Shown here: in pieces, positions 23,528 through 24,856 of the stretch
Numbering within the stretch: position 1 is the stretch's first letter
How the letters are laid out: every line of letters starts with the position of its first letter
From: Thermus brockianus
GTDB lineage: Bacteria; Deinococcota; Deinococci; Deinococcales; Thermaceae
Assembly: GCF_021462505.1 (NCBI RefSeq)
Contig: NZ_JAKEDV010000004.1
Span: 62,001 to 126,000 of the forward strand
DNA length: 64,000 bases
Reading direction: 5' to 3'
Program-made: the position numbers and the translations under genes
The notes under the pieces: generated by a model
What the model was told of the DNA's origin: nothing
The model's database searches: none
Seen by the model: only the letters and a program-made list of their open reading frames with translations

Positions 23528-24856
23528 ATGGTCTTGGACGACCGCTACCCGGTGCTGGAAACCTTGGAAAGCCGGGAGGGCATCACCCTCTACCGGGTGG
23601 AGGGCGGGCTCGTCTTTTTCTTTGACGTGAAGACCCCCGAGGACAAGGAGCGCTTTTACCGCTACCGGGCGGCCCTAAGGCGCCTCATGGAGCTGGGGCT
23701 CCTCGAGGCCCACGTCTCCGCCAAACCCGGCCGCCACTACGCCTTCTTCCCGGAAAAGCCCCTTTCCCGCAAGGCCCCGCCCAAGAAGGCCCTGGAGGCC
23801 CTGGCCCCCTTGGGCTTCGGCCGGGAGCACCTGGCCATGGCGGAAGACGGCGTCGCCTACCTCGCCCCCTGGCCCCTGGGGAAAAAGGCTTCCTCCCTCA
23901 CGCCCGGGCGAAGGCCCCGCCTCCTGGGGGTGGCCCCCGGGGTCTTCCTCCTCGCCCTAGGGGTTTTCCTCCTCTCCCAAGGCCTCTACCGCTACTTCAA
24001 CCCCCCCGAGTACACCGTCCCCGACCTGGTGGGCAAAAGCGCCCGGGAAGCCTTCCTCCTCCTGAAGGACACCGGGCTAACGCTCGCGGTGGAAGAGGGG
24101 AACGACCCCACCAAGCCCAAGGAGGTGGTCCTGGCCCAAGACCCCCCGCCCGGCACCCGCTTAAGGGCCGGCCGGACGGTGCGCCTCACCCTCAACCAGG
24201 CGCGGCTGAACCCGGTACCCGAGCTTTTGGGCCTTAGGCGGGAAGAGGCGGAGGCCAGGCTTAGGGCCCTCGGCTTCCGGGTGGAGGGGATAGCGGAGCT
24301 CCCGAGCCCAGAACCCCTAGGCACGGTCCTCGCCGCCTTCCCCCCGGCCGGCACCCCCTTGGCCCCGGGGGGCGGGGTGCGGCTCCTCCTCTCCCAGGGG
24401 GCCCCCTCCGGGCCCACCTGGCCCTTGCCCCGCCTGGTGGGGCTTTCCCGCAAGGAGGCCCTCTTCCTCCTCAACGCCGCTGGGCTCAAGGTGGAGGTGG
24501 AGGAGGTGCCCTCCGGCGCCCCCCAGGACACGGTGATCGCCCAAGAACCCGCCCCCGGCACCCCCATGCCCGAAGGGAGCGGGGTGCGCCTCCGGGTAGC
24601 GGTCCGGGGCGAGGTGCTCCTGCCCCCTTCGCCTCCCCCTGGGGCGGAAAGGAGCGTTTCCTTGGCCCTAGACCTCCCGCCGGAAGCGGAGGGACGGGAG
24701 GTGCGCCTGGTCCTTTTGGACGGAAATGGGGAACGGGTGGTCTACGAGGGGATAGGCCAAGCGGGGCTTAGGCTTGAAGGCACCTACCCCGTGCGAGGGG
24801 AGGCCCGTTTCCGGCTCTACCTGGACGGGGTCCTCTTCCAGGAGTGGGCGCCGTGA
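23528..24856 (+). CDS. Membrane protein with kinase-like N-lobe remnant and three PASTA domains
   Basis: A 442-residue protein. Residues 1-115 ([32 protein letters not shown], then [22 protein letters not shown]) read like the first strands and alphaC region of a PknB-type Ser/Thr kinase, but the Gly-rich loop is degraded and there is no HRD or DFG catalytic loop. A basic patch leads to one membrane helix (131-150), then three PASTA repeats (about 162-225, 229-296, 303-373) with PDLVG, PELLG and PRLVG openings, and a 60-residue beta-rich C-terminal domain. PASTA repeats bind peptidoglycan or muropeptides outside the cell. It may signal wall state without phosphorylation. Followed by yraN with a GTGA overlap. 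Confidence 0.8.

Follow-up and report, generated by a model that had tools for sequence, protein, structure and literature searches.

In Gram-positive bacteria, PASTA kinases couple the state of the cell wall to the control of growth; PrkC and Stk1 carry an Ig-like domain at the extracytoplasmic end. A pseudokinase is also found in MviN, a MurJ-like flippase. One review describes PASTA domains as restricted to Firmicutes and Actinobacteria (PMC6273383). A 2025 review of bacterial pseudokinases described the catalytic motifs of MviN as degraded and its activation loop as deleted, and its host as a membrane protein required for the synthesis of peptidoglycan (PMC12599244). MviN recruits FhaA once phosphorylated by PknB, and L750 and D793 were named there as interface positions (PMC12599244). 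The sections of that review consulted here contain no mention of a PASTA layout for MviN and do not name the family described here; the text of the review uses 'PASTA' once and 'Deinococc-' three times, each time within its references. Among the open-access titles listed, none described a truncated PASTA pseudokinase family; subscription papers were mostly outside this search, and absence is unproven.

The gene studied here lies in a window of 64,000 nucleotides of Thermus brockianus DNA, which was the whole stretch analysed. The open reading frame starts with ATG at 23528 and stops with TGA, whose last base is 24856. A preliminary description had placed a PASTA protein here, with a membrane span followed by three PASTA repeats. 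The reading frame, Pfam and hydropathy agreed with it, and the motifs it quoted were present. The features were assigned as follows, with the evidence in brackets.

23528..24856, + strand: whole gene, 442 amino acids, with predicted pseudokinase, membrane span, three PASTA repeats and C-terminal domain (reading frame; full-length Thermus relatives)
23540..23872, + strand: predicted truncated pseudokinase domain, residues 5-115 (AlphaFold2, Foldseek, VIA-align, dN/dS)
23546..23752, + strand: N-lobe equivalent, residues 7-75 (DSSP on the model; elements named by analogy)
23783..23863, + strand: putative C-lobe remnant, residues 86-112 (DSSP on the model; MPS1 alignments end at MPS1 666-687)
23915..23989, + strand: single predicted membrane span, residues 130-154 (hydropathy, K/R balance)
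24011..24196, + strand: PASTA repeat 1, residues 162-223 (Pfam PF03793; aligns to PknB PASTA)
24206..24397, + strand: PASTA repeat 2, about residues 227-290, bounds estimated (Pfam stretches; phmmer to PknB and 3m9g/3py9)
24425..24601, + strand: PASTA repeat 3, about residues 300-358 (Pfam PF03793)
24662..24847, + strand: conserved C-terminal domain, about residues 379-440 (alignment of 25 proteins from five families)

Pfam detected PASTA alone in the 442-residue protein, in three stretches (E = 3.6e-39). The NCBIfam model for PASTA kinases, NF033483, matched residues 136-357, corresponding to the span and the PASTA part, and the kinase part was outside the match. The score was 92.5 bits against a curated cut-off of 450, which left the protein outside this equivalog family. 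The PASTA part was similar in sequence by phmmer to PknB chains and to the kinase chains 3m9g/3py9, which we take to be from Staphylococcus. Only residues 130-154 exceeded the hydropathy threshold (19-residue windows above 1.6); five K/R lie in the 21 residues that lead to the span and two in the 20 after it. Since this was the sole hydrophobic stretch and K/R were in excess on its N-terminal side, residues 1 to about 125 are probably cytoplasmic. The protein thus had the layout of PASTA Ser/Thr kinases, kinase fold, one span and PASTA, in a predicted topology. With the Ig-like end domain of PrkC and Stk1 in mind, the profile of the conserved C-terminal domain was compared with solved structures and gave no significant relative.

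AlphaFold2 was run on residues 1-125 with 21 homologues. The model had a pLDDT of 91.0 and a pTM of 0.84, with a low-confidence end. DSSP assigned b1 (7-16), b2 (19-24), b3 (27-32), aC (37-55), b4 (62-66) and b5 (69-75) to the N-lobe and, beyond it, aE (86-95), b7 (102-105) and b8 (108-112); these names follow the established anatomy of kinases. In the model, the order b1-b2-b3-aC-b4-b5-aE-b7-b8 follows the b1-to-b8 part of a protein kinase. Residues 1-125 are predicted to be slightly larger than an N-lobe, with a stump of the C-lobe kept and the end near the place of DFG. From the last strand (108-112) to the span (130-154) there were only 17 residues, so a full C-lobe, which includes the activation segment and aF-aI, was not present.

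The model was compared with solved structures. The best 50 of 1075 Foldseek matches in the PDB were all kinase-fold domains, namely 49 protein kinases and one lanthipeptide-synthetase kinase domain; the best E value was 3.3e-3, with none at E<=1e-3. VIA-align placed MPS1 first with Z 8.7 and 3.5 A over 120 residues, reaching MPS1 residue 686. This Z value is close to what the program terms a common arrangement, and by its own guide a Z near 8 is no more than suggestive. Stronger matches were obtained with a distant homologue, L092, from family f2 of the Deinococcales, whose N-terminal domain was 25% identical to that of T. brockianus. Its AlphaFold2 model (pLDDT 85.6, pTM 0.79) contained two extra helices, 86-91 and 141-157. 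Foldseek gave 199 matches at E<=1e-3 for this model, the best at 3.8e-5, and the best 50 were protein kinases and the MviN pseudokinase. Among the 50 VIA-align matches listed were AAK1 (Z 11.3), MviN (Z 11.1, 166 aligned residues, 4.3 A), PknB (Z 10.7) and Stk1 (Z 10.1); differences of less than 1 in Z are treated as ties. Because their alignments have sequences in common, the two models do not give independent evidence. Taken as predictions, they place the domain in the protein kinase fold superfamily. The preliminary description had claimed a kinase N-lobe likeness for the N-terminus and had set structure prediction beforehand as the check on which this claim could fail. The predicted fold of residues 1-125 matched kinases, and the claim was upheld, more strongly so by L092.

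The catalytic residues were monitored in an alignment of 54 homologues. The alignment left out L002 (same species), the L026 fragment, L034 (N-terminus missing), nine duplicate loci and four PASTA reading frames lacking the domain (L058, L059, L064, L065). The b3 Lys position held Lys in 0/54 sequences, and the aC Glu position held Tyr in 50/54 and Phe in 4/54. The strings HRD and DFG were found in none of the 54 domains, the copy in the window's genome included. A loose D-[FLYIVM]-G, at whatever place in the sequence, occurred in 6/54, and among residues 1-40 a GxGxxG was present in 1/54. At the HRD Asp position, where alignment through the shortened loop makes the assignment less certain than elsewhere, Asp was found in 20/54, other residues in 8/54 and His in all 26 Thermus-type rows, including T. 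brockianus. Thus the b3 Lys, aC Glu, HRD Asp and DFG of an active Hanks-type Ser/Thr kinase were not retained as a set. The preliminary description had reported that there was no catalytic loop. This was correct as to function; however, the domain exceeded the N-lobe, as aE and the b7-b8 hairpin were kept. With a predicted kinase fold, no catalytic motifs and selection on the sequence, the domain qualifies as a pseudokinase whose catalytic death is predicted.

Other positions were invariant. Three features recurred in 54/54 sequences: a Phe or Tyr where the aC motif starts, an Arg or Lys at one position within aC, and a Pro-Gly pair between b4 and b5. The strongly conserved segments were F-x-R-Y-R-x-A-L in aC and S-A-K-P-G-R-Y-Y in b4-b5. 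These fixed non-catalytic positions suggest a conserved surface that may serve for binding. We also considered a back-to-back N-lobe dimer. The b2-b3 loop was shortened in Thermus in the 54-sequence alignment, at what we take to be the place of the interface Leu in PknB.

No kinase was matched by the N-terminal domain in HMMER searches of Pfam and the PDB. Its weak HMMER matches, which included Ras, thioredoxin reductase and transporters, were attributed to chance. Profile-profile comparison was performed between sets of homologues and 41 kinases of the order, with 100 column shuffles as the control; only columns with <50% gaps were shuffled in the final control. The profile of eight f2/f3 homologues scored 46.4 against the kinases (best shuffle 23.2), and that of all 54 homologues scored 33.1 (best shuffle 18.4). 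The Thermus-only profile, at 17.3, was below its best shuffle of 26.8, and the f4/f5 profile, at 23.9, fell short of the 25.8 reached by the highest of its 100 shuffles. An earlier run, which used all columns, had given 29.3 for f4/f5 and 21.8 for the highest of 60 shuffles. That earlier control also gave three of 240 scores near 130, far above the real scores; they were put down to gap columns because none of 400 exceeded 60 in the control with <50% gaps. A kinase signal was therefore present in two of the four profile sets (f2/f3 and all 54), and where it existed, the alignment started near the beginning of both domains. No MviN chain was among the rows listed for two profiles, 14 for profile A2 and the best 60 of 275 for profile A1. 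One homologue matched Pfam APH over residues 11-154 with E = 0.0011, under the cut-off, and APH was also matched by three of the four kinases of the T. brockianus genome.

The N-terminal domain was matched in 47/50 genomes of the family, and the protein or parts of it in 48/50. The three genomes without an N-terminal match were G018 and G020, with no match, and G042, which is 65% complete and gave C-terminal fragments only. PASTA was matched in 101/111 genomes searched as the phylum, all in one order. In selected genomes, the N-terminal domain preceded the span in the sampled PASTA reading frames of every family, f1-f5, which we infer to be Deinococcota from matching named records. A peptide-pattern scan of the genomes of 84,980 species matched 28 stretches; the 21 that could be confirmed all came from records titled Thermus, Meiothermus, Thermaceae or Deinococcales, and absence elsewhere does not follow from this one pattern. 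No Deinococcus record was among the named loci of the scan, from which no claim is made for that genus. The linker after the N-terminal domain varied widely in length among homologues. In four Thermaceae genomes (G004, G006, G007, G021), the N-terminal domain was matched and PASTA was not; in G006 and G007 the match was near a contig end. The f5 loci L058, L059, L064 and L065 encoded another PASTA protein in addition; it had some four PASTA-like repeats, judged by eye, a similar C-terminal domain and almost nothing before the hydrophobic stretch.

In the 54-sequence tree, f1 (99/95), f3 (100/99) and f5 (100/100) formed single branches, f2 had values of 67/81 and f4 was in two parts. The grouping by family was as expected of vertical inheritance. 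Among 22 Thermus sequences (231 pairs), the median dN/dS was 0.20 for the N-terminal domain, 0.15, 0.30 and 0.22 for PASTA repeats 1, 2 and 3, 0.45 for the linker and span, 0.40 for the second linker and 0.25 for the C-terminal domain. The N-terminal domain is being kept, under purifying selection near that of PASTA repeat 3. A pseudogene reading was rejected on the grounds of equal size and purifying selection across the genus. The gene was frameshifted in two Thermus genomes (L005, near 2600; L026, minus strand, frames 0 and 2), in PASTA repeat 3 or the GC-rich linker after it, where a sequencing error and a real frameshift are indistinguishable. The preliminary description had suggested that the protein may be a pseudokinase stub. 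The dead kinase fold was borne out by prediction, but the one-off relic that 'stub' implies was not, as the domain belongs to a widespread family under purifying selection. This is a maintained pseudokinase family and not a decaying gene.

We looked for candidate partners in the genomic setting. Downstream of the PASTA gene was a UPF0102 (YraN) gene, whose possible GTG start overlaps the PASTA stop at 24853-24856, followed by a UbiD-family gene. Upstream, on the opposite strand, were a flavoprotein (Pyr_redox_2) and undecaprenyl diphosphate synthase. In the Meiothermus loci L083 and L088, a similar short reading frame began directly where the PASTA gene ended. In the f2 loci L046, L048 and L092, a cysteine desulfurase-like gene was seen by eye after the PASTA gene, directly or past a short reading frame. 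Reading by eye picked out no kinase or phosphatase in the neighbourhoods covered, those of the gene in the window and of 14 loci.

Four kinases were above the Pfam cut-off in the T. brockianus genome (G000; C12:69253, C19:216580, C12:262086, C19:142616). One has a hydrophobic N-terminal part, by eye, and NHL, one a PQQ propeller, and two consist of the kinase domain alone. None of the four had a PASTA match at E<=0.001. The genome gave three PASTA matches, of which the two listed lie in this gene; all three presumably do, since Pfam gives three stretches in its protein. Among the PASTA matches listed for 14 genomes of f2-f5, no kinase row was at a PASTA place. Two PP2C phosphatase matches were found in the same genome, one of them ending about 390 bases upstream of the domain match in kinase-1. 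This PP2C and kinase-1 (L149/L144, G000 C12:68246-70032) are a likely kinase/phosphatase pair without PASTA. A search for a stand-alone kinase had been suggested in the preliminary description; it yielded four such kinases in the genome, and none was recognised at the loci read. These four kinases and two phosphatases are candidate partners.

The layout, predicted fold, loss of catalytic residues and conservation were established by computation. On balance, we consider it probable that the protein is a receptor of PknB/PrkC/Stk1 layout in which a truncated, dead pseudokinase works as a binding platform. Outside the cell, the three PASTA repeats and the C-terminal domain would bind peptidoglycan or its precursors. 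Inside, the N-lobe with aE and b7-b8 would most likely form the platform through its aC and b4-b5 segments. The platform might dock or allosterically control a partner, such as a separate Ser/Thr kinase or an envelope-growth protein; of these we find a separate kinase the most attractive. Bacterial pseudokinases of known role include scaffolds, among them MviN and EssB/YukC (PMC12599244), and the proposal is made by analogy with these. Since PASTA is joined to a shrunken, predicted dead kinase fold, wall signals are likely passed by partner binding and not by phosphorylation, as the preliminary description had suggested; ligand, partner and signal direction are inferred. A more specific form of this proposal is tentative: in the Deinococcota the PASTA kinase may be split, with a sensor whose dead fold of about 110 residues controls separate kinases through aC and b4-b5. 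Such a kinase fold would be, to our knowledge, among the smallest.

Other explanations were weighed. The PASTA ectodomain might do the work by septal or wall anchoring, with the kinase remnant as a folded cytoplasmic plug that has no partner. This would agree with the lack of a recognised partner nearby, by eye, and with the second PASTA protein of four f5 loci, which does without the domain. Against it stand the purifying selection like that of PASTA repeat 3 (0.20 versus 0.22) and the invariant non-catalytic positions across five families, such as the Pro-Gly and the aC Phe/Tyr, and we regard this explanation as rather unlikely. We give still less weight to an MviN-like scaffold, in which a cellular kinase would phosphorylate the pseudokinase tail and a reader would be recruited for control of peptidoglycan synthesis. 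Its mechanism has a precedent in MviN (PMC12599244), and MviN was among the best structural matches of L092. However, the reader type of MviN is FHA, and no FHA-domain match was found in the T. brockianus genome, so an FHA-based pathway lost weight; the variable length of the linker after the domain also counts against this explanation.

It was also asked whether the N-terminus could be an unrelated alpha+beta domain that merely resembles a kinase N-lobe. The missing HMMER match, the Thermus-only and f4/f5 profiles that did not exceed their shuffles, and a T. brockianus model with no Foldseek match at E<=0.001 are consistent with this. On the other side, two models with partly shared alignments agreed in topology and matched kinase folds only in the 50 rows listed for each, two of four profiles beat all 100 shuffles with alignments that began close to where the kinase domain starts, and the order kinase, span and PASTA was kept. 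This explanation was already disfavoured and is very improbable. An enzyme re-purposed on the kinase fold, for AMPylation or glutamylation, is the least probable of all and is hardly to be expected. Such activities occur in other pseudokinases, SelO and SidJ (PMC12599244), but here the b3 Lys and DFG were absent, the HRD Asp was not general and GxGxxG was found in a single sequence. The binding platform is the preferred reading.

If the split arrangement is true, wall sensing and phosphorylation would be performed by different proteins throughout the phylum. A phylum outside Firmicutes and Actinobacteria keeps the receptor layout with a predicted dead, cut-down kinase, and the four kinases of the genome are without PASTA. 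This might provide a natural test of the pairing of PASTA with a kinase fold in which catalysis is removed. The four kinases belong to the same superfamily, but have full Pkinase domains, with NHL or PQQ or alone. EssB/YukC of T7SSb is likewise a degraded, membrane-anchored pseudokinase for scaffolding, whereas it belongs to a secretion machine (PMC12599244); it was not among the structural matches listed for the T. brockianus or L092 model, which does not speak against similarity. MviN (Rv3910, ActPs3 family) is similar as a membrane-linked bacterial pseudokinase, with the likeness seen in the predicted fold of L092, but its domain comprises 233 residues, 710-942 (PMC12599244). PknB, PrkC and Stk1 share with the protein the order of a cytoplasmic kinase-fold domain, one span and PASTA, and the PASTA part resembles those of PknB and 3m9g/3py9. 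Unlike the kinases described by NF033483, however, the protein has a kinase domain shortened to about 115 residues, from which the catalytic residues are gone.
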